Source of the DNA: a virus
IMG/VR virus record: IMGVR_UViG_3300042528_000130
Span: 1 to 56,256 of that record
Reading direction: 5' to 3' (one strand)
DNA: 56,256 nt
Shown piece after piece: positions 27,910 to 45,563 of this stretch. Under the pieces are notes generated by a model, which worked only from the letters and a program-made list of their open reading frames with translations, had not been told where the DNA came from and ran no database searches. The translations under genes were made by a program, and so were the position numbers. Within the stretch, counting starts at the first letter, position 1; every line of letters begins with the position of its first letter.

Positions 27910-28072
27910 TTTCACGACGCCACGAACGCTCAGCAGTCACGATAGAGCGAGCCTGAGCGCCGCAGGAGTTGCACTTCAGGTAGCGAACCTGATGCTCGCC
28001 GCAGTTCTTGGACGTGCGAGTCGTGAGCCGTCCACGCCCGCAATGGCGACAGCGATCACCGCTAACAGTCAT
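27899..28072 (-). CDS. small zinc ribbon protein, 57 aa
   Basis: ATG 28072 overlaps the upstream stop (ATGA). The protein carries CRHCGRGRL at residues 8-16 and LKCNSCGAQARSIV at 32-45, two CxxC knuckles 24 residues apart, a classic zinc ribbon, with a basic C terminus (WRREKVV). It resembles short Ogr-like or transcription-associated zinc ribbons in form only. It lies immediately before the capsid gene and ends in a palindrome, so a role in late-gene control is conceivable. Confidence 0.65.
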   Translation of the reverse strand: MTVSGDRCRHCGRGRLTTRTSKNCGEHQVRYLKCNSCGAQARSIVTAERSWRREKVV

Positions 28073-29877
28073 TTACGCTTCTTTGCAATAGCCTCGACCG
28101 TAGACCCGATCACATGTCCCGCGAGGCCCGGAACAAATGGCGCGACAGTAGAAGCGACCAACACCCCTGCGTTATTGGCTGCGACTTTGAACCCCTTCTT
28201 GGTGAGCTGGTAGATGTAAGACGGCGACTGAGACTTCACGACGACGCTGACCTCTCGCGGTGCGTTCTCTTTTGCGATTGACTTCACGGCATCCATCTCT
28301 GACTGAGTCAGCTTTCCTGACTCGCGGGCTGGCGTGATGACAAGAGACTTGCCTGTTAGCTCGGCGTCGAAGATCTTCTTGCCGTCCTTGTCCTTGATCT
28401 TCAGAGTCAGAGACTTGCCCTTGATGTCTGCCGACGACTTCGGCGATCCGCCCAGGCTCTTCACGAGCGAAGCGACTTGCTTCTCGCTCGAACCGGCCTT
28501 TTGGATCGCCTTCATGACGCGAGTCGGCCGCATCTGGTTGTCGTAGAGCCCTTTCACGGCTCCGGCGACGGCTCCGGCGGCTGCGGCTTTCGGAACGAGC
28601 GGAGGAAACCACGTCGCGCCGAGCGTGGCGACTGCCGCGCCAGCCGCCCCTTTCGCGGCGCCGACTGCGACGTCGGCTGCGATCCCGCCAGCGCATGTGT
28701 TGCCCTTCTGGAATCCGCCGGAGCCGGTGCCGCAGTTTCGAGCTTCGGCAAACTCGGCGAGAGTCGGAATGCCGCTTCGCCGAGAGACCCACTCCCAAAA
28801 CTCGTTCGCGGAGCGGCCTTGGCGGGCGAGTCGCTTGGCAGCTTTCTTTCCGACTGCGACAGTCTCTTTGTATCGCTTGTAGCCTGGGCTGTTCTTGTCG
28901 GTGAAGTCGATCTCCATGTCCATCTGGTGGCCGTTCTTGTTCCACCACTCTTCGCCATCTGGCGTAGCGACGATGTCTTGGACTCGAACGCGCCCAGTGT
29001 TCAGCCACCTCTGGTACGCGCCGTCGGACAGGAGGCTGGAGCCTGTCTTTCGCATTGCCTCGTCGCTGAAGGAGGCAAATCTTTGCGAAGCAGAAACATC
29101 GACCTCTCCGTCAAACCCGAACTTCGGCCACAGCCGGTAGCCTTTAAAGCTTCCGTCTGGGCCTCCAGTGCTTCCGTGTCCGTATCCAGCAGCAAGAGTC
29201 GTGGCGTTTCGCATGCCGTTTCTCTCGGCAGCTTCTAGAGACTCAGCCATGAGCGCCAGGATCGAAGCAGAGACGGTTGCGACAGACACTCTCCCGTCTG
29301 CCATTGCCTGAAATGCCTTGTTCGTCGGAGAAAAGTAGTCGTAGTGAACCTCGCGATTTTTTCCGATCGTGACGGCCACTCTCGCGTCTCCGAGACTCGC
29401 GTCGCTGGGGTCTATTGGAGATCGTGTCTTGACTTCTATTTTCTGGCCGAGACTTGTGCGATCAATTGTGACTTCAGAACCTTTCGATGTGGCGGCGCCA
29501 ATCACGAGAATGTCAGACGGATCTTTGACTCCAGCCTTCTTGGCGATCTCCATCACCGCAGGAGGGTCGAGAATTTCCAGCGACTTCGCCTTCTTCGCCG
29601 AGTCAAACGGCGAACCGTGCTTGAGTTGCTTCTCGTCGTACTTCGCCGAGCTACCGTTTGGCGTGAGCCGAATCGAGTCCGGCAGTCTCGCGTATGGCCC
29701 GCGCCCACCTGAGCCACCACCAGCGCAGTTGTTGCCCTGGCCGAATCTTCCGCCTCCCTGCCGTCCGCAGCCGTCGTCTTGCGAAGGACGGTCGTCGAAC
29801 GAGAGACGCGTCTGCGAGTCTCGCGACTCCAGAAACGCGAGCAGGCTGGCGTATCGGCAATCCAGGGAGAGGCTCAT
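28069..29877 (-). CDS. multidomain head-operon protein with a Cys motif, WP-GFD module and Gly-rich membrane segment
   Basis: The protein is 602 aa. Order: short N terminus; Cys motif (GCGRQGGGRFGQGNNCAGG, about 36-54); a module about 65-375 containing GYRLWPKFGFDGEV, TPDGEEWWNKNG and SPGYKRYKETV, homologous to the modules repeated in the 2118-residue protein; a second Cys motif (CGTGSGGFQKGNTCAGG, about 382); a Gly/Ala-rich hydrophobic stretch (about 396-440: GAAKGAAGAAVATLGATWFP); a small alpha/beta domain ending LTKKGFKVAANN; a final hydrophobic helix (about 570-595) and KKRK. The layout suits a virion protein that meets a membrane. Function unknown. ATG overlaps the protease stop. Confidence 0.8.
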   Translation of the reverse strand: MSLSLDCRYASLLAFLESRDSQTRLSFDDRPSQDDGCGRQGGGRFGQGNNCAGGGSGGRGPYARLPDSIRLTPNGSSAKYDEKQLKHGSPFDSAKKAKSLEILDPPAVMEIAKKAGVKDPSDILVIGAATSKGSEVTIDRTSLGQKIEVKTRSPIDPSDASLGDARVAVTIGKNREVHYDYFSPTNKAFQAMADGRVSVATVSASILALMAESLEAAERNGMRNATTLAAGYGHGSTGGPDGSFKGYRLWPKFGFDGEVDVSASQRFASFSDEAMRKTGSSLLSDGAYQRWLNTGRVRVQDIVATPDGEEWWNKNGHQMDMEIDFTDKNSPGYKRYKETVAVGKKAAKRLARQGRSANEFWEWVSRRSGIPTLAEFAEARNCGTGSGGFQKGNTCAGGIAADVAVGAAKGAAGAAVATLGATWFPPLVPKAAAAGAVAGAVKGLYDNQMRPTRVMKAIQKAGSSEKQVASLVKSLGGSPKSSADIKGKSLTLKIKDKDGKKIFDAELTGKSLVITPARESGKLTQSEMDAVKSIAKENAPREVSVVVKSQSPSYIYQLTKKGFKVAANNAGVLVASTVAPFVPGLAGHVIGSTVEAIAKKRK

Positions 29878-32105
29878 CCGCGACGGGCCTTGAGGAATGC
29901 GACCGTCTCGCGAGCAACGCTGGCTGATCTGCGAGATGTCTTCGGCCGAGAGATCTTTTTCTCGAACACTCCCTTGCTCGACGAGTAGCCCCCAGGAGAT
30001 TTCGCGACAAGCTTGTACCCCTTCGAGGACAGAGTCTTGACGTCTTCATCTCTCCACGCCTCGACGGCGACGTGCTTTGCGTTCAGTGCTTTTGCAGACT
30101 TCTCGACAGTATCGAGGTTTGTGCCGCCGTCCTGAAAAGAAAAGAAAACGGAAGCGCCTTTCGGCTTGTCTCCGAAGATGCTGCTTGCCGTGATGAACGC
30201 ATGCCCGCCATTATGCGTCTCGATCATCAGCGTCTTTCCGTCTGCCGCGAATGACGAATACTTCACCTCTCCATTTGTCATAATGTCGGCGACCTTCTTT
30301 ATCTGTTCATCCGACACGCCTGCGCTCTCTTTAATAGCCTGATATCGCTTTCCCTTCGGGCCGTTCACGTTGCCGAAAAACTCAGCTACGGACACTGCGG
30401 CGTCGATTAGCGACCCAAACACTTTCCCGCCAATCCAACCTCCCGCTGCTCCGCCTACGACTCCAGCAACTCCACCGGCAAGTCCGCCTGCGGCCCCCAT
30501 GACTGCACCAATGCGGCTTGCCTTTGAAGAAAAGCTTTCCTTCTCAGCCTCCGGCGACGGCTCCTTCTTTGCGCTGCCTTTTCCGCCTCCAGCGCCGCAC
30601 GAATTATCCAGCCCGCCGCCTTCCCCCGTCGGGCAAAACGCCCGCCGTTCTGTAAGAAACTCTGCCATTTCTTTCTTAACGATTGCGGCCCGCTCTTTGA
30701 TCTCAGAGCGAGACTCGACCTTCTTCACGCCTTCGGCGACGAAGTGCTGGTAGCTCCGCTTCGCCACTGCGACAGTCGAGTCGCCGTAGGCTGGGTACGT
30801 GACGGGGCCGCAATCGAGGAGAGACTTGATCTTCGTCACAGTCCGAATCGAGCGGCCGTTCTCGGTCGTCCACTTTTCCCCGCCGTCTGCCACGACGAAG
30901 CTGAAGCTTGATCCACGCAAGTCGCCTCTTTCGATTAGCTCGGCCAAATCTTGGCGAGACTCCGGAAGCAGGCACTCGTACTTGAGCCCCTTCGTGTCGA
31001 CGATGAGCCGCATCGTCGTCGGGAAACGTCCGAGCAGATGATCGGGCGAGTGATTGAACAGGCAGCGAGTCTGAAGAGGCTGGCCTTCGCTGTCTTCTCG
31101 CTTCTCGACGATGTCGAACGCTTCCGGCGCAATCCGCTCGACAAAATCCCCCAGCAGCAACGAGTCCTTGTGGAAGCGGGCCGCATACCCGACAACGTAC
31201 GTGCGAGGCTTGCCAGTCGAAGGATCGGCGCGGCGCTCGACCCGCAGAAGCTCCGGGTCTGCCTTCTCGACGTGGCTGAAGTTGCCGAGAAATCGTCGCT
31301 CGACTCCAGGCGGCTCGGTCGCGCGACGTTCTTCCGCGAAGTATTCTTCGATCACTTTTCGCAACTCCTCTGCGTCTGGTTCGCCCTCGATCCGTCGAAG
31401 GCACTCGTCTTTCGTGGACTCGACGTGTACGTACTTGGTCGGAATGTCCGACAACTGCCTCTTCATCTCGTCGCTGACGTTCGTGGTGATGATCCACGTC
31501 TTGCAGTCGTTCGAGCCTGAAAGAGCCTTCTTCAGAATAAGATTTCTGATATCCAGACAATAAGAGACGAGCTTCTCGTTCCTGCCGCCTCCCGACAGGG
31601 CGGACATGACCTTGTAGAAGTCGAAGACGACGTCGTTCTCGCCCTTGTGCTTGGCAACATAGTCCTGCTTGCCGCTACCTGGGGCGCCATGCACGACGTA
31701 GACGTTTGGTTTCATGCCGTGCGACGAGCCGTACGGACGAAGATCGCGGCCCTCTTTCTCGTCGGCGGCGTTCATCTGCTCGACGACTTTCCGAGCCCAA
31801 GCGTAGCCATTCGGGCCACCCCAGAGCTTGTTGGCGATTAGCCCGTTGCTGGGCCATCCCTTGTCTCCCTTGAAGAATCCTTCGGCCTTCTCGTCTGACT
31901 GGTGCCGGTCGAAGAACGCTTTCATCCGTCGCAGCGTCGACGGCGATAGCTTCACCCCGTTCGCCAAGTCTCTCGCGCGAGCAATGCCGACGGCTGTGCC
32001 GCCGCGGCCGTATTCGCGGCGGAGCTTCAGGCCGTACTCGGCTTCCTTCTTGACGCCCTGCGGCGGCGTGAAGTCGATGTGGGAGTATTTTTCAGGAGTT
32101 GCCAT
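29874..32105 (-). CDS. prohead protease fused to a P-loop domain and a Gly-zipper tail
   Basis: The protein is 743 aa; typical S78 prohead proteases are 180-250 aa. Order: residues 10-130, a conserved phage domain (ARARDLANGVKLSPSTLRRM; WPSNGLIANKLWGGPNGYAW); about 131-265, a P-loop NTPase/kinase-like domain with Walker A-like GAPGSGKQ; about 270-460, the protease, with His in CLFNHSPDHLLGR and Ser in LRGSSFSFVV; a divergent Cys motif (CPTGEGGGLDNSC, about 491); a Gly-zipper membrane segment (about 520-565, AAGGLAGGVAGVVGGAAGGW); and an alpha/beta C-terminal domain (SSKGYKLVAKS) resembling that of the 602-residue protein. The protease should mature the capsid protein; the other parts may ride in the prohead. 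Walker A has Gln where Ser/Thr is usual. Confidence 0.85.
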   Translation of the reverse strand: MATPEKYSHIDFTPPQGVKKEAEYGLKLRREYGRGGTAVGIARARDLANGVKLSPSTLRRMKAFFDRHQSDEKAEGFFKGDKGWPSNGLIANKLWGGPNGYAWARKVVEQMNAADEKEGRDLRPYGSSHGMKPNVYVVHGAPGSGKQDYVAKHKGENDVVFDFYKVMSALSGGGRNEKLVSYCLDIRNLILKKALSGSNDCKTWIITTNVSDEMKRQLSDIPTKYVHVESTKDECLRRIEGEPDAEELRKVIEEYFAEERRATEPPGVERRFLGNFSHVEKADPELLRVERRADPSTGKPRTYVVGYAARFHKDSLLLGDFVERIAPEAFDIVEKREDSEGQPLQTRCLFNHSPDHLLGRFPTTMRLIVDTKGLKYECLLPESRQDLAELIERGDLRGSSFSFVVADGGEKWTTENGRSIRTVTKIKSLLDCGPVTYPAYGDSTVAVAKRSYQHFVAEGVKKVESRSEIKERAAIVKKEMAEFLTERRAFCPTGEGGGLDNSCGAGGGKGSAKKEPSPEAEKESFSSKASRIGAVMGAAGGLAGGVAGVVGGAAGGWIGGKVFGSLIDAAVSVAEFFGNVNGPKGKRYQAIKESAGVSDEQIKKVADIMTNGEVKYSSFAADGKTLMIETHNGGHAFITASSIFGDKPKGASVFFSFQDGGTNLDTVEKSAKALNAKHVAVEAWRDEDVKTLSSKGYKLVAKSPGGYSSSKGVFEKKISRPKTSRRSASVARETVAFLKARRG

Positions 32106-35100
32106 CGTCGCTCCATTCGTAATCGTCCAGATCCCCCTCGTCCCAAATCTCCTGCCACATTTCGTCGAGCCGCACGAGATCTGCTGGCGAGAGCCACTCG
32201 TCGCCGGAGCCGAGCGGCATGTCTCGTCTCTGTGCGCCGGAGCCGAACTTCCGGATAAACCTGTCCATGATCTTGGACTGCGGGCTCGACCTGTCCTTCA
32301 GGTTGAAGTAGACGTCCAAGTCTTCGCCGTTCTCGGCCCACCAGCGAGTTCCCTCGGGGGTGGCGTGCAGATCGAGCAGAGACTTGGCGTGAGACAAGTC
32401 TGGCGGGAGCTTGCTGACGAGGTGCTGCGGAAGTCGTGCGTCGAAACCCATGCGGGGCCAGATCGTGAAACCTCGCCAGGGATTGCTCGCCTTGCCTTTC
32501 CCAGAGTCGGCAGCGGCGCTTCCGGCGGCGTTGAGCGTGATCTGTGACGCACCGGCCTTGCGTGCTGACTCGACGCTCGACACCATCGTCCGGTAGAACG
32601 CTGCGGCGGCTGCGTGTCGCTTGGCTGGATCTCTGGCGATCTCGTCGGTGACGGTCGCTGTGTTCTGGAAAATGAGTACAGAGCCGTCTTCTCCCTTGCC
32701 GATCGCGGCTGAGTGATTCATCGCACCTTCGATGCCCGCGATGTCCGACTCGAAGTCGATGAAGACCGGAGTCTCTGAGAAGCCGAACCCGGAGCCGAAC
32801 TCAGTTCCAGGCCGCATGTAGACGTCAGAGTCCGGCGTTCCGCCTGCGGCTGCGACGGCAGTCGCGGCGTCGATGCCAGCCGATTCGAGGCTCGACTGCA
32901 CTCTCTGCGGAGCCTTGACGCTCACCGTGCCGTACTTGTCGGCGCCGTCGAACGGCGGCGGAGCGGTCTCGCGAGACGATGCTGGCCAGAGGATTTCGCT
33001 GTTCGACGACCAGCGGTCGTCTGATCCGGAGGCTGTGGCCGTGGCTGTGCCGTCTTCCTGGCACTTGTTGCCAGAGCCGAACTTGCCGTCCTCGTCACGG
33101 CCGCAGTCGGCAGACCTCTGCTCATCGTCCAGCGAATACTCGATCGTCTCTTCGTCGTAGTCGCGGCTCGTAATCTTTCTTGCGACGCGGCCTTGTGCCG
33201 TGATGACGACCGGCTTGACCTTCTTGACCTCGGAGATTGGGTATCCGTACTTTCCGTCAGGGCCGATGTAGTGCGGAGAGTCTTTTCCGACTCGATGCTG
33301 CTCGAAGTCGGCATCGAACTCTTCTTGAGTCTTGTAGAACTTCGGCTCGCCGATCTTCATGGTTCCGACGAGCGTCGCCTTGCCCTTTCCTGTGCGGACG
33401 ATTCCGACAGTCTTGCCGACGTACGGGCGAAGCGAGTTGGAGGGGCGAGTCTCTAAAGTCTTCTCTCCGGACAGAATCTGGCCCGTGAAGTCCTGATGCT
33501 TGTCGTTGATGTTGATGCCCATCTGGCACTTGTTGCCAGACCCGAACTTTCCGTCTTGGTCACGACCGCAGTCGGCGGAGCGAGACTCGACCAAATCCAG
33601 CGGCAGGAAGTTGCGTCGCTCTTCGACGTCGTCTTCGAGCGACTGAATCAAGGCCAGCACGTCGATGTCGAGGTCGGCGAAGTCCGCGTTCCACACCGAC
33701 TGTTCGACGTCGAGCGGATTGACGTCGAACTCCTCGTCTCGATCGTCGATCTCGCCCTGCTGCGCGTCTCGCCGAGAGGCGGGCGTAAACGGCTTGGCGC
33801 TCGGTTGATCTTTGCTTCTCGCGAGCCGTCCGCTGAGAACTCCATCGGCCGCGGCCGAGAAGAGCGAGTTGTCGGTGATGTTCGTCTGCGCGCCGAGGTG
33901 CTTCCAGAGCCGCTTCTCGTACTGCCAGAGCGCCGCCTGGATCTCGTCGATGTCGGCCTTGCGGCCGGTTCTGGCCTCGATCTCCGACTGCACGCGACGG
34001 AAGACTTCGCGAATGTTCTTTCTCGCCGTGCCGGTCTTCGGGTCTTGCTGCTCGTGAATCAGAGACTTGAACAGAGAGTTGCCAGCCTGATGCAGGGCAT
34101 GAATCTCTGGGTCTTCGTGCTTTCCGTATCCGCCGCCAGTGGGTCGGCGAGTCTTGCCGTGAGACCGCTCGGCGGCTGTCGCCCAGAGGAAAGCCGCGCC
34201 GTTCTCCTCGATCACGCCGGTCTTGGCCTGAATCTTCAGCGAGCGGACAAGCTGCTCTTTCGTAATGCCGTGAGTCTTGTCGACGCCGAACAGCTTCGCG
34301 CGGTTCCACTTTCCGGACTCGATCGCCTTGAGGATCGCCTCGGCCCGCTCCTTGGCCTGCTTCGGAGTCGATCGCGTTATGAGTTCTCCGGAGACCCGCC
34401 CGACAGACCTCATGAGCCAGCGATCCATCGTCAGGAAGTCGTGCTTCCCAGACAGGTTCGCAAAGAACGAGCCGATCTTCGGGCCGAAGATCGCCGCGAC
34501 CGGAACGACCTCATCGCGAAGCTCGCCTGACACCATCTGCTTTTGGTCGCCGCCTCGGTCGACAGGCAAAGACCACGCCGAAGCTCCGGTTCGCTGCTGC
34601 CACTCTTCTGCCTGCGACTTCCCGGCGAGCTTGGCGAGAGTCTTCTCGACGTTCCCAGCGGTAGTGTATCCGGACAAAAGCCGCCGAGTTCGCTCTTTGC
34701 CGAACGAGTCGAGCAGTCCCTGGAGTACTTTCAGCGACGCCGTGACGTCTCTTGCGCCGCCGCCGTAGTTCGACGGAACGACCGTACCGTGTTCGCGATA
34801 CATGCGATACAGGTCGTCGGCATCGCGGAGGTTCGCGTCTGGGCCTTGGCCCGTGCTAGTGATCGCGAGCAGCATCGTGAAGACGAACTTCGCGTCGTCG
34901 TCCGTCTCGAATTCCGGATACCTCGACGTCATCTTCTTCATCGTGTCGTCGAGGTCGGTGCTGTAGAACCCAGGGTCTACGCCAAGCACGTCATAGGCAT
35001 GCAGCGCGTCGTCTGTGAGGGACTCGGCGAGATAGTCCAGTTGGGCTTCGGGCAAGTCTGGCGACGCCGTGTCGATGATCGCGCCTGGGCCTGTCGCTCC

Positions 35101-38100
35101 AGTCTTCTGACGCTCTTCTTCGTGGCGATTCGCCAGGAACTGCCCGACTGCCTCGTGAGCAACGAACTGGCCGTTCTGCCGGTGAGTCTCAGGCGGAAAG
35201 ACAGGATCGCTCTCGGTGATCTTGTTCGTCGACTTGCCGCCGCGAGACACGAACGTGCGATCCCACAGGTCTGTCGTCGAGCCCGGAGTAGAGCCTTCCG
35301 GCTTGTTCGCCTTGAAGTCCGCGATCGCCCTGTCGCGAGCTTCTTTGTCGATGACCGCCACGGTCTTCTGACCGCCGATCATGACGTCGACGTTTCGCTG
35401 CTTGCCAGCTTTGGCCTCAGCCTGAACGCTCCCGGCCACGCCGCCTTCGCCGCCGCAGTCATTGCCCTGGCCGAACTGCCCGCCGTCCTGTCGATCTGCG
35501 TCGGTGCAGTCCCCGCGGAACTCAACGTCGTAGTCGTACCAGTTCCGGTTCTTGTTCCGCTCTTTCAGGCGAGTGAGAAGAGTCTTCATCTTCTTGTACC
35601 GCTTGTAGCCGAGACTCTTCTTGTCTTTGAATTTCAGCATCAGCGGGATGTTCTTACCGTTCTCGTCCCACCACTTCTTCCCCTCGGCAGACGAGATCAG
35701 CTCTTGAATCATCAGCGGCTCGCCTGAGTCGAGCTTGTCAACGATATCGAGAGCCCACTTCGGCGGATTGTCGTAGTTGTCCTCGCCTCGATTCGCGATC
35801 GCCTCCTCGGCAAACTCACGCAGCCCGTACGTATGAATCTTCCCCAGCTCGCCATCGAAGCCGAACTGTGGCCAGAGCCGGTAGCCCTTGAGCGGAGAGT
35901 GTGCGTCGCCAGCAGCCATCGTCTCGGCGTACTGAGCGCCGATGGACTCAGCCCTCGCAAGCGAGTCGGTCATCTTTTCGAGCAGCACGCTCGACACTCG
36001 TTTCACTGACTCTTCAGTGATCTCGCCGTCTTCCGGCCGGTCGACGTACATCTCGTCGTACGAGATCGCGAGCCCCTCTCCGTTGTCGAACATCGCGACG
36101 TTCACCTCGACGGCGCCGTCCTTGTTCGTGCCGTCGGGGGAGATCGGCATCGTGGAGTTCACGCGGATAACGTCTCCGTCGCCTTCGACGATGACTTTTC
36201 CGCCTTTGCGAACTCCGCCGCCGATCGCGACGACGTCGTCGAAAGACTTGAACGAGCCGATGTCGGTCATCGCGCTCGCCAGCTCGCCGACGTCCCTCAC
36301 AATGAAAGACTTGAGAACTTCGCCGCCGGTCACTGGCGGAGAGTCCTTGAGCTTGGCTCGGCCCCATTGGGCTTCGCCTTCGGACTCCCACCACGAATCG
36401 TCTGGCTTCGTTGCTGTCGCGGCGCCGCCATCTTCGGATGCGCAGTCGTTGCCTCGCCCGAACCGTCCGCCTTCTTGGCGACCGCAGTCGTCGCGGAATT
36501 CGACCTCGTCTTCGAGCCAGTCGATGATGCTCCGGTTCTTGTTTCGCTCCTTCAGGCGAGCGATGCGGGCCTTCATCTCCTCGTACCGCTTGTAGCCCAG
36601 GCTCGACTTGTCTCGGAAGTCGAACGTCAGGTCTGTGCCGCGGCCGTTGTCGTCCCACCACTTCTCGCCTTCGCGAGTCGCGATAAGCTGCTGGACTGTC
36701 AGCTCTTCCTTATCGAGCTGAGACTTCTGCGAGTCGTTGAGAGTGAGCTTCCCGTCGGCGATAGACTTCCGCAGCGCTTCGAGTCTGAATGATCGAAGCT
36801 TGGCGTCGAAGCCGAACTGCGGCCAGAGCCGGTAGCCCTTCGTGTTCGATTCTTTATTTCCAGCAGCGTACGTCGTCGCCCTGACGATCCCGCTCTTCTC
36901 GGCCAGACTCATCGACTCGGACATTCTCTGCATCAGCAGGCTGGCGATCTGAGACTGCTGGGCCTGCGACAGCTCAACCTCTCCTCCGCCGCTGTCCTGC
37001 GGGAACATCTCGCCGTAGTAGATCGTGCGCCCGCCGTTGTAGCCGCCGTCGTCCCACAGGAGGTCGATGTGCGTCATGACTTGCAGAGATTCGGGGTCGC
37101 TAGGTTCGAGGGGCAAGAACGAGTACGAAGACAGAGTCTCCCTGTTGCTGCTTGCCTTGAACTCCATCGAGCCGCCCTCTCTCGCGCCGCCTGAGAGCGT
37201 CGCAAGATCGTCGAGGGTGATCTGAAATGCCTTGAGCGCAGCGGCTGTGTTCTTTGGGGATTTGATCGTGACACTCTTGAGTCCGTCAGCCCCTGGAATG
37301 GCCAGCGGGGGCGACTCTTTAAGCTCTCTGCCGCTCATGGAGAGAGAGTCGTCTCCTGCGTTCTGCATCCAGCTATCATCGCGATCGCGAGCCTGGGGCT
37401 CGCTCGATCCGCCGCCGCCGCCAGCACAGTCGTTGTCTGCCGCGAACTGCCCGCCCTCAGTCCGGCCGCAGTCGAGGCCAGCCCGATACTCGACGTCATC
37501 GAGCCAATCGAAGTAGCTCCGCCTCTTGTTTCGCTCCTTGAGTCGCGGGAGCTTCGCCTTCATTTCCTCGAACCGCTTGAGGCCGAGCGAATCGCCGGAG
37601 AACTCGATTTTCATGTCGAGCGAGTCGCCGTTCTCGTCCCACCAGCGTTCGCCTTCGCGAGTCGAGATCAGCTCTTGAATGGTGAGGCTCTTGCGACTGA
37701 GCTTGCTGCTCTTCGCAACTCGCGGCGTCTTGTCGAGAATCTCTTTCGGAATCTTGGCGAACAGTTCCTGCGGGAGCTTCGCGTCGAAGCCGAACTGCGG
37801 CCACAGCCTGTAGCCCTTGTCCTTGCTGTCGGCAGAGCCAATGGCGAGCATCTGTGCGTGGCTGAAGCCTGCGTCGCTGGCCATGCTCATGGACTCCAGC
37901 ATGCGTTCCATCATCACGCTGGCGATGCGGTTCTGCGATGCTGCATCGAGATCGAGGCCGTCGTCTGGGAACATCGTGCCGTACTCGATGTACGACGAGC
38001 CGTTCTCCTTGCTGATCTCGATGCTCGACTCGACGCTGCCCTTGTCGGGATCGTCTGGGTCGATCGGGATCTGCGACGAGACAGAGATGTCGTTGTGCGA

Positions 38101-38448
38101 ATACGACGCCAGCCACATTTCTGCGCCGCGGATCGCGCCTCCTCCAAGCGTGACGATCTCGTCGATGTTCAGGCCGTGTTCAGACTGGGCGGTGCGGAAC
38201 TTCTTGACGTCTCGAATCGTGAGGGCTTCGAGCTTCTCGCCGCCCTTGACCGGGCTCGACTTCTTCAGGTCAGACGACGTCCACTCTTTCGTTCCGGACT
38301 CCTGCTTCCATGAGTCGTCCTTCGGGCGAGCAGCCACGGCTGTTCCGCCGCTGCCGGACGCGCAGTCATTTCTCGGCGCAAACTGCCCCCCGTCAGTCCG
38401 GCCGCAGTTGATGTCGGACGCCCTGAACTCTCGCTCGCGGAGAATCAC
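32092..38448 (-). CDS. 2118-residue multidomain (polyvalent-type) head-operon protein
   Basis: GTG 38448 overlaps the portal stop. Six Cys motifs divide it. Three homologous modules of about 300 aa come first, each with an N-terminal part (KSVTIKSPKN-like), GYRLWPQFGFDAKL, TREGEKWWDDNG and a basic SLGYKRYEEMKARIARLKER. Next, about 980-1600, a helical region with FLTMDRWLMRSVGRVSGE and NGAAFLWATAAERSHGKTRR, not recognised. Then about 1645-1760, an ASCH-like domain (FTGQILSGEKTLETRPSNSL, ISEVKKVKP). Last, a fourth module (FTIWPRMGFDARL, TPEGTRWWAENG). The modules have the look of a GNAT-type acyltransferase C terminus, but that is only resemblance. The architecture recalls polyvalent proteins, which are packed with DNA and delivered to the host. 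The frame is open throughout with uniform style. Confidence 0.82.
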   Translation of the reverse strand: MILREREFRASDINCGRTDGGQFAPRNDCASGSGGTAVAARPKDDSWKQESGTKEWTSSDLKKSSPVKGGEKLEALTIRDVKKFRTAQSEHGLNIDEIVTLGGGAIRGAEMWLASYSHNDISVSSQIPIDPDDPDKGSVESSIEISKENGSSYIEYGTMFPDDGLDLDAASQNRIASVMMERMLESMSMASDAGFSHAQMLAIGSADSKDKGYRLWPQFGFDAKLPQELFAKIPKEILDKTPRVAKSSKLSRKSLTIQELISTREGERWWDENGDSLDMKIEFSGDSLGLKRFEEMKAKLPRLKERNKRRSYFDWLDDVEYRAGLDCGRTEGGQFAADNDCAGGGGGSSEPQARDRDDSWMQNAGDDSLSMSGRELKESPPLAIPGADGLKSVTIKSPKNTAAALKAFQITLDDLATLSGGAREGGSMEFKASSNRETLSSYSFLPLEPSDPESLQVMTHIDLLWDDGGYNGGRTIYYGEMFPQDSGGGEVELSQAQQSQIASLLMQRMSESMSLAEKSGIVRATTYAAGNKESNTKGYRLWPQFGFDAKLRSFRLEALRKSIADGKLTLNDSQKSQLDKEELTVQQLIATREGEKWWDDNGRGTDLTFDFRDKSSLGYKRYEEMKARIARLKERNKNRSIIDWLEDEVEFRDDCGRQEGGRFGRGNDCASEDGGAATATKPDDSWWESEGEAQWGRAKLKDSPPVTGGEVLKSFIVRDVGELASAMTDIGSFKSFDDVVAIGGGVRKGGKVIVEGDGDVIRVNSTMPISPDGTNKDGAVEVNVAMFDNGEGLAISYDEMYVDRPEDGEITEESVKRVSSVLLEKMTDSLARAESIGAQYAETMAAGDAHSPLKGYRLWPQFGFDGELGKIHTYGLREFAEEAIANRGEDNYDNPPKWALDIVDKLDSGEPLMIQELISSAEGKKWWDENGKNIPLMLKFKDKKSLGYKRYKKMKTLLTRLKERNKNRNWYDYDVEFRGDCTDADRQDGGQFGQGNDCGGEGGVAGSVQAEAKAGKQRNVDVMIGGQKTVAVIDKEARDRAIADFKANKPEGSTPGSTTDLWDRTFVSRGGKSTNKITESDPVFPPETHRQNGQFVAHEAVGQFLANRHEEERQKTGATGPGAIIDTASPDLPEAQLDYLAESLTDDALHAYDVLGVDPGFYSTDLDDTMKKMTSRYPEFETDDDAKFVFTMLLAITSTGQGPDANLRDADDLYRMYREHGTVVPSNYGGGARDVTASLKVLQGLLDSFGKERTRRLLSGYTTAGNVEKTLAKLAGKSQAEEWQQRTGASAWSLPVDRGGDQKQMVSGELRDEVVPVAAIFGPKIGSFFANLSGKHDFLTMDRWLMRSVGRVSGELITRSTPKQAKERAEAILKAIESGKWNRAKLFGVDKTHGITKEQLVRSLKIQAKTGVIEENGAAFLWATAAERSHGKTRRPTGGGYGKHEDPEIHALHQAGNSLFKSLIHEQQDPKTGTARKNIREVFRRVQSEIEARTGRKADIDEIQAALWQYEKRLWKHLGAQTNITDNSLFSAAADGVLSGRLARSKDQPSAKPFTPASRRDAQQGEIDDRDEEFDVNPLDVEQSVWNADFADLDIDVLALIQSLEDDVEERRNFLPLDLVESRSADCGRDQDGKFGSGNKCQMGININDKHQDFTGQILSGEKTLETRPSNSLRPYVGKTVGIVRTGKGKATLVGTMKIGEPKFYKTQEEFDADFEQHRVGKDSPHYIGPDGKYGYPISEVKKVKPVVITAQGRVARKITSRDYDEETIEYSLDDEQRSADCGRDEDGKFGSGNKCQEDGTATATASGSDDRWSSNSEILWPASSRETAPPPFDGADKYGTVSVKAPQRVQSSLESAGIDAATAVAAAGGTPDSDVYMRPGTEFGSGFGFSETPVFIDFESDIAGIEGAMNHSAAIGKGEDGSVLIFQNTATVTDEIARDPAKRHAAAAAFYRTMVSSVESARKAGASQITLNAAGSAAADSGKGKASNPWRGFTIWPRMGFDARLPQHLVSKLPPDLSHAKSLLDLHATPEGTRWWAENGEDLDVYFNLKDRSSPQSKIMDRFIRKFGSGAQRRDMPLGSGDEWLSPADLVRLDEMWQEIWDEGDLDDYEWSDDGNS

Positions 38449-41400
38449 AGAGTCACCTTGTCGTCGGTGATCTCGTAGAACATCTGCATGACCTCGCCAG
38501 AGTAGTCGTGTCCAGACAATACGCCCGCGATAACCTCAGCTACGAACTCTCGTCCGTTCACGGCGGCGTACCGCGAGACTTCAGCCTCGATCATCGACCG
38601 CTGCTCGGCCGTGAACTCATGCGACAGAGACGTCGCGTATGAAGCTGGGTCGCTCTTCGCGTGTGTGCGATGGGCCAGTTCGTGGAGAACCGGATTCGGC
38701 TGCGATGTCCAGCCGTCACGCTCAAGCATCGAGGCGTCGGGCGAGACGTAGACCGCGTCTTCTTCTGACGAGTACGACGCCAGAAGCTGCCCGATCGAGC
38801 GGACTTCGATCTTAGGCAGAGAAGAGAAGTGGTTCGACGCAGCCGAGATCAAGCCTTGGGCTGCGCTTTCTCCGCCATAATCCGCTTCGCTGCATCTCGC
38901 AGTGCTTCTGCGATGTCCTTCGCCGCCATCCCCGGAGGGAAGTCGAAGCGAACGAGGTTCTTTTTTGGCTCTTGTTCGTCGGCCATCGTACTCTTCCTTT
39001 CGGATTTCCTTCTTCTCGTTGAGATCCCAGATCGCGAGCTGGCTCGTGCTTTCTGCGGAGTCGATCGCGTCGTCGATGCTGTCGAACTTCTCTGAGAGAT
39101 CGAGGTACACCTTGCCGGTGGCCTGATCGACCCAGCCCCCTAAGTGTAGCGTCGGACGCTCGCCGAAGTGGGATTTATTCTCTTCAAAAAATTTCGTGAT
39201 GGCTTCTTCCGTCACGTCGTCGGCCGAGTTCAAGATTGTCTCCGACTCTGGAACGACGCTGACCATGTAGCCAGACGTCGGACTGTTGGCGGCGACTGGA
39301 TGAACCGAGAAGCCGCCCGAGTCTCGGATGCTCTTGAGGGCCGCTTCCGTGACTTGGCCAGACTTGATTCCGCTGGAGCCAGATCCGTCTCCGCTGGCGC
39401 ACGTGTTCCCGCGGCCGAACCGGCCGCCATCAGCCCGACCGCAGTCGTCGCTGCGAGACTCTGGATTCGTAGTCTTAGTCTTGGAAAGCCAGGGCCTAGT
39501 CTTGAGGTGCTGGTAGCCCAGCGGCTCGTCTGAGTCTCGCCCGTTATCTTCAGCACGAGACTGCTTCTTCCGCTTGGCCAGCTCGCTGCGAATAACGTCG
39601 GCGCCGACCTTCGAGGCGTACGCGTTCTGCGGCGCGAAGTCGCCCGTAAGCTCGTAGACCGCGTTCTGGCCGAACGTCTCGGCGAACAGGGCTGGCCACG
39701 CCTCTTCGGGGAGAGTCGAGGCGTGCGTGAGCATGCCGTTGTACTCGCCGTTCGTCGAGAACGAGTAGCCGCCGCGGACGTGGGCCACGAGATCATGAAC
39801 GACCCGGAACAGGTCGTTCGCAATCATGGGCTCGCCATCGGAAGTCTTGAACTTCGTCTCGCGGAGCATCGGGTGGTTTTCGGTCGCGGAGCCAGTCCCG
39901 AATCCTCGTTCTGTCATGAAGAACTTAAACTCACCAGACTTGGCGACTTCTTCCCGCATCTTGTCCGAGTTGGGCTTCGTGCTTCCTGGCGGATCTCCGT
40001 AGGGCTCGCCTTCGCCTCGCCACGCACTGACTCGCAGGCCAGACTGCGTCAGGGCCTCGTACTGGCGACCGATCTCGTCGACGAGCGACGAGTACGCAGC
40101 TTCTGCCTCTGGCGAGAGCGGCTTTCCGCTCTGGGCATTCTGCTCCTGGGCGAACGTCTCGATCTGCTGCCGCGGCGGTGTCTCAGCTTTGCCCTTCGAG
40201 CGATCCCAGACTGAGGCTGGGTCTTTGCCGATCGAGGCCACGACGCTATCGACGGCGTCGCGATACGGCTTCGTGCCGGACGGAAAGGTGCGGTCGCTGG
40301 CCTCGGACTTCGGTGCCTTCGGAGACGACTCCTGCTCGCCCGGGCCTGCGCCGTCTTTCTTCGCGCAGTCGTTGCCCTGCCCGAAACGCCCGCCGTCTTG
40401 GCGACCGCAGTCGTTCGACCGCTTCTCTTCGACAGCTTCGACTTCCTGAAGATCAGGCTTCTTCTCGCTGGCTTGGCCCTGCTCGGCAGGATTCGGAGAC
40501 TTGCCAGTCTTGACCTCTGGAAGACTCGGCACGCCACCGGCAGCTTCCGGCGGGGCTCCGGCTCCAGCTCCAGCTCCACCCATCATCGCAGCCATCGGAT
40601 CTGGCTTCGGCTTAACAGCATCTTCGAGCGTCTGCATGTTCATGCCGACGAAGTGCTTGTCGCCGTTCTCGACCGGAGCGAGCCCCTCGGCGCGGCGGCA
40701 GTCGTTGATCGAGTAGATGCCGAGATTCGTCATCGTCGAGTAGAACGACGCGCGGCTGTTCGAGTTGCCTCGCATCAGCCCCTTCGTGTCGAACTCGGCG
40801 AAGAACACGTCGTCGTTGTAGATCAGCGACCGCGAGATAGCCGACTCGATTCGACGGAGCCACGGCAGCAGCGTGTAGGTGACGAACTCTTGGCCCTGAG
40901 TCTCCAAGTCTCCGCCGCTCTGGCCCTGCACGAGCGCGAGTGGCAACCTGTAGATTCGCGCGATTTCTTCGCTCTGAAATCTCCGGCTATCTATGAACTG
41001 ACTCTGCTCTTGCGAGAACCCGATGGGCTCGGCTTTCAGGCCGTTTGTGAGGACTGCCGTCCGGAAAGCTCGGTCAACGCCCCTATGAAGTCTCTCCCAA
41101 TTGTCGCGGAGTCGCTCGGCCGCTTCGGGCGAGAGCGATCCGTCCGTCTGAAGCACGACGCCAGGGCGAGCCGAGTTCGCCCAGTACTTCGACGCGTGAA
41201 TCTCACACGCTCTCGCCAGGGCGATCGCCTCGCGGCCGACTTCGACCGGCACCATGCCCTTGATGCCGTCAGGCTCGGGAGTCCAGCGGACGTGCATGAC
41301 CTGATCTTGCGTGTACCGCTCCAGTCTTCCGGTCTCCGGATTCGTGTAGCTGTACCGGAGTCGGCCGTTTTCGAGACGCTCGACCTCCATCCGGCTCGGA

Positions 41401-41843
41401 TGAAGATTGTCGAGGGCGCTCACGGCTCCGTACTTGCCAGACCGAATCAGGCTGTACGAGTTCCCCCACAGAGTCAGGAACATGACGATCTGCTCGAAGA
41501 ACTCGAACTTCGTCTGCCACTCGTTGGGCGCGAACGACAAGACTTTGTAGAGCGGCAAGTCTGTGGCTGGCTCTTTGCCGCCGTCCTTCGTCCGACGCAT
41601 GACGTGCAGAGGCAGGCCCGAGATCGTCTCGGCGAGAATCCGGCAGCAGGCCAGCACGACAGTGGACTGGAGGGCGCTGTCTGGCGTGATCCGGACTTCC
41701 GCGGCTGTGCGCGAGCGTCCGAGATACGGCTCGTCGCTCGTGAGAAAGTTATTCCAGAGAATGCTCCGGAACTCAGGCTCTGGAGTGGTCAGGCCGCGTT
41801 CGGGTGTCCAGACAATGTCGGACAGGGCTCGCTCTTCGCTCAC
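38445..41843 (-). CDS. portal protein fused to polyvalent-type domains and a metallopeptidase
   Basis: The protein is 1132 aa; HK97-type portals are about 400. Residues 1-400 are the portal (AAEVRITPDSALQSTVVLAC, GNSYSLIRSGKYG, VMHVRWTPEPDGIKG, then IARIYRLPLALVQGQSG). A Pro/Ala linker and Cys motif follow (about 495). Residues 510-780 contain FRVVHDLVAHVRGGYSF and ALFAETFGQNAV, a motif set I recall from large phage polyvalent proteins. After a second Cys motif (about 817) comes HLGGWVDQATGKVYLDLSEK with QLAIWDL. The end, about 990-1132, is a zincin: VLHELAHRTH and EFVAEVIAG. Around residues 952-998 the frame is Arg-rich and another frame reads better (see 38849-38986), so this may really be several genes. 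GTG 41843 overlaps the terL stop. Confidence 0.85.
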   Translation of the reverse strand: MSEERALSDIVWTPERGLTTPEPEFRSILWNNFLTSDEPYLGRSRTAAEVRITPDSALQSTVVLACCRILAETISGLPLHVMRRTKDGGKEPATDLPLYKVLSFAPNEWQTKFEFFEQIVMFLTLWGNSYSLIRSGKYGAVSALDNLHPSRMEVERLENGRLRYSYTNPETGRLERYTQDQVMHVRWTPEPDGIKGMVPVEVGREAIALARACEIHASKYWANSARPGVVLQTDGSLSPEAAERLRDNWERLHRGVDRAFRTAVLTNGLKAEPIGFSQEQSQFIDSRRFQSEEIARIYRLPLALVQGQSGGDLETQGQEFVTYTLLPWLRRIESAISRSLIYNDDVFFAEFDTKGLMRGNSNSRASFYSTMTNLGIYSINDCRRAEGLAPVENGDKHFVGMNMQTLEDAVKPKPDPMAAMMGGAGAGAGAPPEAAGGVPSLPEVKTGKSPNPAEQGQASEKKPDLQEVEAVEEKRSNDCGRQDGGRFGQGNDCAKKDGAGPGEQESSPKAPKSEASDRTFPSGTKPYRDAVDSVVASIGKDPASVWDRSKGKAETPPRQQIETFAQEQNAQSGKPLSPEAEAAYSSLVDEIGRQYEALTQSGLRVSAWRGEGEPYGDPPGSTKPNSDKMREEVAKSGEFKFFMTERGFGTGSATENHPMLRETKFKTSDGEPMIANDLFRVVHDLVAHVRGGYSFSTNGEYNGMLTHASTLPEEAWPALFAETFGQNAVYELTGDFAPQNAYASKVGADVIRSELAKRKKQSRAEDNGRDSDEPLGYQHLKTRPWLSKTKTTNPESRSDDCGRADGGRFGRGNTCASGDGSGSSGIKSGQVTEAALKSIRDSGGFSVHPVAANSPTSGYMVSVVPESETILNSADDVTEEAITKFFEENKSHFGERPTLHLGGWVDQATGKVYLDLSEKFDSIDDAIDSAESTSQLAIWDLNEKKEIRKEEYDGRRTRAKKEPRSLRLPSGDGGEGHRRSTARCSEADYGGESAAQGLISAASNHFSSLPKIEVRSIGQLLASYSSEEDAVYVSPDASMLERDGWTSQPNPVLHELAHRTHAKSDPASYATSLSHEFTAEQRSMIEAEVSRYAAVNGREFVAEVIAGVLSGHDYSGEVMQMFYEITDDKVTL
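38849..38986 (-). CDS. nested 45-aa gene candidate inside the portal fusion
   Basis: ATG 38986 with GGAAG upstream opens a frame (MADEQEPKKNLVRFDFPPGM, then AAKDIAEALRDAAKRIMAEK) that looks like a normal helical protein, while the portal frame over the same bases is Arg/Gly/Ser-rich and improbable. It ends TTGA, where a TTG could start the metallopeptidase. So the 1132-residue frame may hide portal-plus-domains, this gene, and a separate zincin, in three coupled cistrons, or a pair of frameshifts joining them. Confidence 0.5.
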   Translation of the reverse strand: MADEQEPKKNLVRFDFPPGMAAKDIAEALRDAAKRIMAEKAQPKA

Positions 41844-43525
41844 AGTACGATGATCTCCGGATCTGGCTGTCGCATGCCTGCTTCGGCGTCACTTGCGAGT
41901 GCGAGCGCCATGACGAGAGCGACCATGCCGTCCACTCGCTGAGGGCTCATCGCACTCGGTTTCACGATCTTGATGTACCCGTCAGAGTTAGTCTTGGTCA
42001 CGCAGTTCGATGCCATCCAGTTCAGGATGGGATTGTCAGCAGTTCGCAGCCGCCCCTGCGCTATGAGAGTTTCAAGAGCGCGGGTCGGTGAATTCATCTG
42101 CGAGAAATGCTGCGAAAAGCCTATCACGTCAAGTCCCTCAGTCTGAAGTTGTTGCTGAAGGTGGTGGGCGTTGTGCGGGTCGGCCGCGATCTTTCTGACC
42201 TGATGGTCTTTCGCGAACTGAAGAATGTCGCGACGAATGAACTCGTAGTCGCACGTGTCGCCTGGAGTCAGGAGCAGGCCGGTCTTCTTGCTGTCTCTCG
42301 CCCAGAGCGTGTACGGAACTTCTTCGCGACGCTGCGTCGCGTTGTCTTCTGGGATCCAGAACTTGCAGATCACGTCGAAGACGTCTTCGCCTGTCTCTTC
42401 GTCGGCGATCTTCGAGACAGCGACGAACGCGTTCACGTCCCAGGTCTGGGCTAAGTCGAGCCCGCAGTACCAGACGCGAGACTTGTCCGGAGGCGGGAAG
42501 TCTCGCTTGCAGCGTTCCCAGCGGGTCAAGTCCACGAACTTGTTCGATCCCTGTATCCAGACATTGAGCCTGTATCTGAGGAAGTCAGCGAGCTTCGAGT
42601 TGTTCCCCTCGGCCTCTCGGACGTCGGCCTTGAAGCTCTCCTCGTCCATCGTGACGCCGAACGAGGGATTCGCGGCTCGCCAGACTTCCGGGTCTCGGTA
42701 GTCGTCCTCGGCGGTCGCTCCGGCCACGAACCCGAAGAACTGCGGATCGTGGTGCGGGTCTTGCATGCACTTGAGGGCATGCTCGTGCAGCTCGTAGCAG
42801 ATCGACGTCCGGTCAGTCCCGGCTGTGGTGATCGCGAGAATTAAGCTCTGTGATCTGGAAATTCCACCGTAACGAACCGCTGCCCATAGCTTCCTGTCCT
42901 TGGCGGAATGGATCTCGTCATAGCACAGCGAGTGGATATTCAGGCCCTCCTGGCGACCGGAGTCGCTGGAGATGACCTTCCAGAACGAGTGCGTCGGAAC
43001 GCACGTGATCGTCTTCCGAGAGTCGACGATCTCCAGCATCTCGGACAGGTGCGGGCTCGCCTCGACAAGCTCCTTCATCTGCTTGTAGACGATCGAGGCC
43101 TGCTCGCGGCTCGTGGCACAGCCGAAGCACTCGGCTGACGCTTCGCCGTCAGCGACGGTCATGTACAGGCCGATGCCGGAGAGAAGGGTAGACTTGCACA
43201 GAGAGCGTCTTGGCCCCCGCGGCTACCATGCCGCGGGGGCCAAGACGCCATTTTTTTTCGGCACCTCTATGAAGCCAATCCTGAACTTCCGAGCCCCGTT
43301 GTCGACCCGGAGCCAGCCGAAGAGTTCCTCGATGATGTCGTGCTTCTGCCAGGGGAGAAGCTCGAACGGCTTGCCAGCGAACTGGCCCTTCGAGTGGACG
43401 AGGAAGTTCTCGAAGAACCCGACGGCGTGGTCGGCCCGCTCTTGGTCGAAGTAGAAGTCGAGCCCCTGCTCAACTGCTTCGCTTCGCGATATACGCGGCA
43501 AGAGGATTTTCTTTGGCAGCGGCAC
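41840..43525 (-). CDS. terL: terminase large subunit, interrupted at Walker A by a hairpin insert with an in-frame TAG
   Basis: The packaging ATPase/nuclease. The N-terminal piece (GTG 43525) has LLPWQKHDIIEELFGWL and IEVPKKNG; the downstream piece resumes with KSTLLSGIGLYMTVADG, so the Walker A motif of this family (PxKNGKST) is split exactly between Gly and Lys. Between them lie 51 bases (43196-43246), a multiple of three, that would encode VLAPAAW-stop-PRGPRRSLC and form a perfect hairpin. Downstream features are intact: Walker B NIHSLCYDEIHSA, the nuclease DxxxxxD-type GLDLAQTWDV, DPHNAHHLQQ, and VDGMVALVMALAL. Without the insert the protein would be about 545 aa, normal for the family. 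As written it is disrupted unless the insert is bypassed. Overlaps terS by 56 bp and the portal by four. Confidence 0.85.
43205..43248. other. perfect 19-bp hairpin inside terL
   Basis: Arms at 43205-43223 and 43230-43248 are exact complements (GCGTCTTGGCCCCCGCGGC and its complement) with a six-base loop, TACCAT on the plus strand. The in-frame TAG of terL falls at the loop and stem edge (43223-43225). On the plus strand the stem is followed after two bases by eight T, so in that direction it has the exact form of an intrinsic terminator; those T are the AAA AAA AAT codons of terL. Confidence 0.9.
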
Positions 43526-43934
43526 TGTTCACCTTGAGTGTGCTTCGAGCCGCCGGGGTCATGCCGAACTGCTGCTCGATCCGCAGCAAGTCTCCGGGCA
43601 GGCTCTTGAACAACGTCCCCTCCGCTGTGATCTGTGAGTAGCCGGTCGACGTGAGCTGGGTCATGCCATGCTCGCGGACGTGCTTCGAGACGACGACCCA
43701 CTGCTCGTGCAGGACGCAGTACCGGGTCAGGAGAGACCGATCGGCCTGAGAGAGAACGCCCATCTTCGCCAGGAGCGGCGCGATCTCGTTCCACTTCTCC
43801 AGGGCCACGCCATCGAGGCACGGCGGCGGGCTCAGGTCGGCATCGGGCGGCGCCGGTTCGTCGCCGTTGAGAGGCCGGTTGCCGGGATTGCCCCTGAGAA
43901 TCTTGATGGAGGTCGGCGTCGGCGGGCGTCCCAT
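43470..43934 (-). CDS. terS: terminase small subunit (P27 family)
   Basis: The protein is 154 aa. MGRPPTPTSIKILRGNPGNR is the typical P27-type start, then PPCLDGVALEKWNEIAPLLA, QADRSLLTRYCVLHEQWV, and a C-terminal GDLLRIEQQFGMTPAARSTL. It recognises phage DNA for packaging and recruits TerL. It follows a 524-base region without a gene that probably includes the packaging site. No strong ribosome binding site is visible before ATG 43934. Confidence 0.92.
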   Translation of the reverse strand: MGRPPTPTSIKILRGNPGNRPLNGDEPAPPDADLSPPPCLDGVALEKWNEIAPLLAKMGVLSQADRSLLTRYCVLHEQWVVVSKHVREHGMTQLTSTGYSQITAEGTLFKSLPGDLLRIEQQFGMTPAARSTLKVNSAAAKENPLAAYIAKRSS

Positions 43935-44458: not shown

Positions 44459-44758
44459 CTAGGGGCCTCTGCGTTCATTATATGTCTTCACCGCATGGCA
44501 CTTCTGGCACAGCGTCTGAAGCCCAGCCTCATCATCGCTCTGAGTCAGCTTTCGAGGAATGATGTGGTCGACATGTGCCTCCTGTGGCGAGCCACACACG
44601 CGACCACAGGAGCGACACTGATAGGCGTCGCGAATCAGAACTCGCTCTCGAATCGCCTGCCAGTTCTTGCCCCCATAGCCTCGCCTGTAGGCATTGGGGC
44701 GACCTTCTCGCATCCGGAGTTTCTTGGCGGGCCTGAAGAAGCTCATCCGGCGAGGCAT
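44459..44758 (-). CDS. HNH endonuclease
   Basis: The protein is 99 aa from ATG 44758, four bases after the upstream stop. Zinc knuckle CRSCG (about 52), then EAHVDHIIPRKLTQSDDEAG and TLCQKCHAVKT, the full HNH core with both CxxC pairs. HNH proteins beside terminase genes of many HK97-type phages are needed for packaging-site cleavage, so a packaging role is more likely than a homing one; here it lies upstream of terS across the non-coding region. Confidence 0.88.
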   Translation of the reverse strand: MPRRMSFFRPAKKLRMREGRPNAYRRGYGGKNWQAIRERVLIRDAYQCRSCGRVCGSPQEAHVDHIIPRKLTQSDDEAGLQTLCQKCHAVKTYNERRGP

Positions 44759-44762
44759 GAGA

Positions 44763-45563
44763 TCACGAGACCACGAGGAGGGCAGAGTTGCTGTAGAAAG
44801 TCTGCGAGTCAAACGTCAGAGAGAGCCGGTAGAGGCTGTTATTGTCGCCGGATGCGACAATAAACGACTGCGTGCTATTGGCAGTTCCGCCAAAGCTGTC
44901 CCACGTTGACCCGCCATCTGTTGATCGCTGCCACTGCTTGCTGGGGAAGCTGTATGTGCCACCATAAGTGTTGCCCACGATGGAGGCGGCAGCGTAGAAG
45001 CTGACAGACTGCCCAACAGACTTCACCTGTCCGACTGGCTGATACGACCACACCGCGCTGACAGTGTCATATCGCAGAGTTCCGGGAGAGCTGCGAACTG
45101 ACTTGAGGCCGTTCGTCACGACGAGCCGGTAGAGGTCTCCATCGTTCGAGGCTGTCTGGCTCGTGACTTCGAGGCCAACGGTTCGCTGCGAATAGTAATA
45201 CCCAGCCGTGCTGTCATCGCCAGAAGACCCTGGCACTGTCGCCCACGTCGCCCCATCGTCGTCGCTCTTTTCCCACACGTATGTGAATGGCAGGCTCTCG
45301 GGCGAAGGTGTGATCACCGCGCTGAATGTTCCAGTTCCGCTGCCGGTCGCGTCGACGTAGTCCATCAGGTTGTACGGCCAATAGCCTGTCGAAGGCCAGC
45401 CGATCTCGATCGAGTTGCGAGGCCAGCCGGTCATTCCGTACAAGTCATATCCGTACAGCCCGCGAATGGCCGCATACACGTCGCCAAGCCGCCACAGGCC
45501 ATTCGCCTCATAGCCGTCGGGCCGCATCGACGCCCCGATTCGCCCGCCGATTCTGCCATTCAT
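44763..45563 (-). CDS. tail appendage protein with Ig-like domains
   Basis: The protein is 266 aa. N terminus MNGRIGGRIGASMRPDGYEA, then a Trp/Tyr/Gly-rich linker (GLWRLGDVYAAIRGLYGYDL). From about residue 80 there are two beta-sandwich units with patterns YVWEKSDDDGATWATVPGSS and KQWQRSTDGGSTWDSFGGTA, each with a D-G-G/A-T-W turn and a later LYRLVVTNG / LYRLSLTFD strand, typical of Ig-like domains on phage surface proteins, which bind carbohydrate weakly. ATG overlaps the previous stop (TGATG). Confidence 0.72.
   Translation of the reverse strand: MNGRIGGRIGASMRPDGYEANGLWRLGDVYAAIRGLYGYDLYGMTGWPRNSIEIGWPSTGYWPYNLMDYVDATGSGTGTFSAVITPSPESLPFTYVWEKSDDDGATWATVPGSSGDDSTAGYYYSQRTVGLEVTSQTASNDGDLYRLVVTNGLKSVRSSPGTLRYDTVSAVWSYQPVGQVKSVGQSVSFYAAASIVGNTYGGTYSFPSKQWQRSTDGGSTWDSFGGTANSTQSFIVASGDNNSLYRLSLTFDSQTFYSNSALLVVS

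Follow-up and report, generated by a model that had tools for sequence, protein, structure and literature searches.

A mobile hairpin in the Walker A motif of phage terminase genes, probably made harmless by translational bypassing

How can a phage make its large terminase subunit, TerL, when a hairpin interrupts the gene inside the Walker A motif? The question is raised by a viral sequence of 56,256 nucleotides (IMG/VR record IMGVR_UViG_3300042528_000130), referred to here in its whole length as the window. On the minus strand, terL reads ...EVPKKNG, runs through 51 nt (43246 down to 43196) and resumes with KSTLLSG, the phase unchanged, so that the motif is split exactly between its Gly and Lys codons. 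An earlier note, made from the letters of the sequence, had described a 51-nt in-frame hairpin insert at this place and an in-frame TAG within it; both are confirmed, the insert by frame reading, by profile columns and by an insert-free relative, L003. The note had also proposed that TerL homologs be used to define the exact boundaries, and these are sharp: the two halves of the protein meet at neighboring profile columns (235 and 236 of phrog_9, 117 and 118 of phrog_4914), and the PKKNGKST of L003 aligns with the RKNGKT of a solved terminase (6z6d). The features of the locus are collected in the table, where the terms take-off and landing anticipate the reading preferred below.

The perfect stem of 19 bp that had been reported, closed by a 6-nt loop at 43205-43248, does pair over its whole length, but the stem proper to the insert is 17 bp, the outermost two pairs borrowing the GC of the upstream GGC codon. 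No longer perfect hairpin occurs in the 56-kb window, and Markov resamples of the window gave stems of 8-12 bp. Folded as RNA, the hairpin has an energy of -49.7 kcal/mol (z = -7.4), and none of 200 shuffles folded as low.

Table. Features of the interrupted terL locus (positions are those of the window)
Feature	Position	Strand	Basis or remark
Inserted element, 51 nt: hairpin, linker and putative landing triplet	43196..43246	-	Without counterpart in insert-free relatives, e.g. L003; same site in 46 other contigs
5' arm of conserved 17-bp stem, GTCTTGGCCCCCGCGGC	43230..43246	-	Begins immediately 3' of the putative take-off codon; covariation, alignment A1
Hairpin loop, ATGGTA	43224..43229	-	RNA fold, alignment
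3' arm of conserved 17-bp stem	43207..43223	-	Covariation, alignment A1
In-frame TAG in insert	43223..43225	-	ORF reading
Variable linker from hairpin to landing triplet; 8 nt in window, 5-8 nt in family	43199..43206	-	
Putative landing triplet; TGC in window, GGN in 28 of 30 distinct elements, AAC in L253	43196..43198	-	
Putative take-off codon GGC, the Walker A Gly	43247..43249	-	
AAAAAAAAT tract at the end of Lys-Lys-Asn; retained by nearly all carriers despite codon usage	43250..43258	-	T8 on plus strand
TerL, upstream part, 93 residues, GTG to PKKNG	43247..43525	-	PHROG terminase large subunit matches
TerL, downstream part, KSTLL to stop, remaining ATPase and nuclease	41840..43195	-	Pfam PF03354, PF20441; PDB 6z6d
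TerS, small terminase subunit	43470..43934	-	Pfam Terminase_4, phrog_83

The earlier note had suggested looking for the same insert in related phages, and it was found at the same site in 46 further IMG/VR contigs from 43 metagenomes. Searching IMG/VR with TerL returned 53 relatives, and DNA-pattern and further TerL scans raised the number of carriers to 47 contigs including the window; these carriers are all metagenomic and mutually related, and their counts are not independent trials. Among the TerL relatives readable across the site, many have a hairpin insert at the identical codon boundary, and others are insert-free or contain an intein. With the window's own copy, the family comprises 30 distinct insert sequences, 46-51 nt long and covering all three length phases. 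A context-only pattern, which required Gly-Lys-Ser-Thr after a gap and no hairpin, returned about 20 chance matches lacking a strong hairpin together with three true carriers (L267, L275 and L276), which indicates that the association of hairpin and site is specific. The window's exact 19-nt arm matched no other contig in a scan of IMG/VR, because the window variant is private. Beyond IMG/VR, the exact hairpin had no match in GTDB genomes, where a relaxed pattern gave three matches, all by chance, and no host or prophage; a tRNA search for the host was empty, a search for a close TerL in 589 genomes of two phyla yielded nothing informative, and the cultured phages and plasmids searched contained no copy.

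The hairpin itself is conserved as a structure. In an alignment of the 30 distinct elements, pairing of the 17-bp stem is intact in 98.6% of cells and drops to 41-51% when the arms are slid against each other. Six pairs changed on both sides, and none of 500 shuffles did as well on any of five measures. In the window and 10 other carrier records (16-97 kb), a covariance model found a single locus each, always terL. Loop and linker vary among elements, and the 5' boundary is the hairpin base in every element, including L253, which is displaced by a codon (see below). The codon directly 3' of the boundary is GTC, GCC, CGC or TCC and never a stop; where stops occur, in some of the elements, they lie in the loop region. 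No consensus structure was found in the 75 nt on either side of the insert in carriers, and hence no conserved flanking stem-loops like those of T4 gene 60. At the gathering score no Rfam family was matched, the hits being sub-threshold generic hairpins.

Ordinary decoding is defeated in every member of the family. Of the distinct inserts, 21 of 30 are out of frame, and the nine that are in frame all contain a stop in the upstream frame, compared with 26% of shuffled in-frame inserts. Since every insert either shifts the frame or holds a stop, plain read-through cannot yield TerL, and something must skip or remove the insert. The terL of carriers is nevertheless under purifying selection on both sides of it: with synonymous distances among carriers saturated, dN/dS has a median of 0.26 in the upstream part and 0.19 in the downstream part, with single pairs as low as 0.011 (L017-L049, downstream part). 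Between the window and the insert-free sister L003, the values are 0.07 and 0.10 for the upstream and downstream parts. Both TerL frames are open in carriers, and a single terL is present in each of the seven carrier records tested, the window among them.

We conclude from the comparison of sequences that the terL hairpin is a mobile element that has been gained or lost at least 10 times. Near-identical phages exist without it, and L063 and L078 carry inserts with 98% DNA identity in TerLs that share 45% of their residues. On a TerL tree with 29 rows for carriers, 42 for insert-free phages and 3 for intein-bearing ones, the carrier state requires 14 changes, and strongly supported branches force at least 10 of these; it is this combination that indicates mobility. 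Three minimal pairs (L088/L123, L065/L093 and L078/L174) differ by the insert and by clustered changes in a few flanking codons. In one TerL subfamily (L093-L171), insert-free members have Ala before the Walker A Lys (PKKNAKST), encoded by GCN at the Gly position, whereas carriers have GGC there, as expected if short flanks move with the element or if take-off requires GGN. No gene belonging to the element itself was found. An HNH endonuclease gene near terS (44459-44812 in the window) is common in relatives whether or not they have the insert; considered as a partner of the element, it was present in 38 of the 41 carriers compared and in 59 of the 67 loci lacking the insert, and with such similar frequencies it is not linked to the insert.

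Among the 30 distinct elements, the triplet before the gap is GGC in 26, GGT in 2, GGG in 1 and AAT in 1, and the gap itself ends with GGC in 21, GGA in 5, GGT in 2, AAC in 1 and TGC in 1, the window. GGN thus faces GGN in 28 of the 30; positions 1 and 2 of the two triplets agree in 29 and the full triplet in 20, and eight further distinct elements have third-position differences, some outside normal wobble (GGC to GGA). The hairpin is joined to the landing triplet by 21 different linkers of 5-8 nt, so that the GG is held while its neighbors vary. In L253, where the element lies one codon further up, AAT stands before the gap and AAC at its end, two codons that share one tRNA-Asn, and GGG (Gly) is then decoded; its insert-free relative L280 (98% protein identity) has AAG AAC GGC at the corresponding place. 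A viral scan for more AAT/AAC cases returned this single contig. Constraint on the protein can explain Gly at one edge but not at both. Re-pairing of one peptidyl-tRNA would account for both edges, including the freer third position. The matched triplets could have originated as a target duplication at insertion, but duplication alone would not have preserved the match while the linkers changed.

Upstream of the gap, the A tract is also kept: in the 29 distinct elements at the main site, AAA stands at the first Lys in 29, at the second Lys in 28 and AAT follows in 28. In the rest of these genes, by comparison, AAA makes up 21% of Lys codons and AAT 24% of Asn codons. One possible role of the tract is to slow the ribosome or loosen its hold; another is as a piece of the insertion target. 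The imperfect match seen earlier in the window, where the landing TGC agrees with the take-off GGC at positions 2 and 3 only, is real and is the sole first-position mismatch among the 30 elements. The element of the window may be bypassed with lower efficiency, may have been damaged recently or may hold a sequencing error.

Together, these observations suggest that the element is a mobile hairpin that is probably rendered harmless by programmed translational bypassing. This possibility, already raised in the earlier note, is the best supported of the readings, given the same site and hairpin, the three length phases, the matched edge codons and a terL selected to remain intact. The ribosome would pass the A-rich Lys-Lys-Asn codons and decode GGC, where it would encounter a very stable hairpin starting at the next codon. 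Peptidyl-tRNA-Gly would then release GGC, the ribosome would slide over the gap without decoding, and the tRNA would re-pair with the matching triplet just before the Lys codon, giving ordinary TerL. That skipping takes place on the ribosome rather than by removal in RNA, that the A tract and the hairpin each have a role in it, and that the window copy still functions with its UGC landing triplet are parts of this model that we infer from sequence. A gap of 46-51 nt lies inside the 56-nt limit for processive sliding in T4. Counting against bypass are the lack of a stop just after take-off, the lack of conserved flanking stem-loops, the TGC of the window, the third-position differences in eight other elements, the possible origin of the matched triplets by duplication and the single contig behind AAT/AAC. 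Any nascent-peptide signal would lie among residues upstream of the gap that TerL function constrains as well.

The main rival to bypass is removal of the insert from the RNA. The element would then behave as a very short intron: one cut would fall at the hairpin base, another several nucleotides past the 3' arm, and host or phage enzymes would ligate the ends, a reading that we consider unlikely. Such removal would be consistent with a 5' boundary at the hairpin base in all elements, L253 among them, and with mobility and an intron-like choice of site in a motif that inteins also occupy; an intact TerL is needed under either reading, and DNA alone cannot separate splicing from bypass. On the other hand, the element matches no Rfam family, and a bulge-helix-bulge motif (3-nt bulges around a 4-bp helix) is not formed by the junctions, the 5' junction lying within a continuous helix or at its base and the 3' junction being unpaired. 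RtcB and the Pfam RNA_ligase families are absent from nine carrier records, although a host could supply the ligase, and a splice site would not be expected to have GG at each edge and a free third base. Slightly less probable again is a new kind of mobile element, a bare, gene-less hairpin of about 50 nt whose homing site would be a single codon position of terL and whose removal from the mRNA would rely on undescribed splicing; if this were true, it would rank among the shortest known intron-like mobile elements. Splicing at the protein level does not fit inserts of 46-51 nt with a stop or a frame change, in which no continuous open frame with intein splicing motifs was found.

That the insert inactivated terL in the window phage, with packaging lost or supplied by a helper, might be suggested by the in-frame TAG, the broken P-loop and the private TGC landing triplet. 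Recent inactivation, one of the alternatives in the earlier note, is excluded for the family by dN/dS, which stays at about 0.01-0.26 in both parts of TerL at saturated synonymous distances, and the same element persists across many divergent TerL lineages; recent decay may be conceivable for the window copy, and overall we regard inactivation as improbable. TerL might instead be made as two polypeptides that assemble, the N-terminal stretch of about 94-120 residues and the C-terminal one of about 445 both being open. This is very improbable, however, as it would divide the Walker A motif between chains; the first ATG of the window's downstream part comes after KSTLLSGIGLY, at a position that is not kept (L267, for example, has none there), and relatives with an empty site encode a single chain. 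Library preparation can create perfect fold-back palindromes, and the window's exact arm is unique in IMG/VR, but an artefact of assembly, as had been considered, or of amplification is excluded for the family by same-site copies with compensatory stem changes in the 46 other contigs, which come from 43 metagenomes, and we give it practically no weight. On the plus strand, the GC-rich hairpin (43205-43248) followed by T8 (43251-43258), the complement of the AAA AAA AA in the Lys-Lys-Asn codons, has the look of a textbook intrinsic terminator, antisense to terL, as had been noted; a terminator would leave unexplained why an out-of-frame insert is tolerated in an essential gene.

Bypassing as the preferred reading invites comparison with T4 gene 60, whose gap, read from AF158101 (2803-2852), is 50 nt between GGA and GGA. 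The two systems share a Gly take-off codon, a gap of about 50 nt with an adjoining stem-loop, a matched landing triplet and an essential phage gene, encoding a topoisomerase in T4 and a terminase here. In T4, an A-site stem-loop forms beside the take-off codon and sliding is processive up to 56 nt (PMC11194080). T4 gene 60 differs in having a stop directly 3' of take-off, 5' and 3' stem-loops without a conserved counterpart flanking the terL inserts, and bypass that uses a nascent-peptide signal, whereas the stem of the terL element is far longer. A MobA relic lies near the T4 gap, in contrast to the unlinked HNH gene here, and no sequence relationship between the two was found. The terL element would thus work like T4 gene 60, a likeness of mechanism that need not imply common ancestry.

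The byp elements of Magnusiomyces capitatus mitochondria are likewise short blocks skipped in translation. Mitochondrial byps tolerate imperfect codon matches at two of three positions (PMC5009743), and the title of Nosek et al. 2015, one of the references of that paper, calls them mobile. Mobility is thus common to byp elements and the terL element, with its at least 10 forced state changes; the 81 byp copies occupy 12 of 15 genes of one mitochondrial genome, compared with one copy per phage genome in one gene here. A short bypass proposed in Streptomyces phages and cited in PMC5009743 also concerns phage genes, with a much shorter gap. Efficient programmed bypassing is well documented only in T4 gene 60 and some yeast mitochondria (PMC5009743). 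No paper reporting bypassing in a terminase gene came up among those searched. To our knowledge, comparative evidence on bypassing in phages has so far been lacking.

The terL family offers 30 natural variants in an essential gene, with insert-free sisters, an AAT/AAC shift, third-position mismatches and variable linkers, and this set makes testable the need for a codon match, the role of the hairpin and the spread of gaps. Seemingly broken terL genes in metagenomes may, by the same token, be intact. The terL P-loop is also the target of two unrelated kinds of removable insert, inteins and the hairpin element. Inteins in L037 (before 984), L048 (before 5001) and L094 (before 1921) end in the same Walker A motif, ..PTHN being followed by STLL. 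Both kinds are removable and mobile, but the inteins are removed at the protein level, are hundreds of residues long and lie after the Lys codon, one residue further down than the hairpin element, which lies before it.

Other features of the window were observed in passing. Next to terL, the portal protein (38445-41843, 1132 residues) has a portal-family match only over its first ~510 residues, the remainder being extra. Beside the portal gene, the region 28000-41000 contains repeated cassettes of about 1 kb (families D1, D5, D6 and D9) within ORFs of 600-2100 residues. At 315-1145, this phage contig encodes a protein with an SPFH/Band_7 domain.
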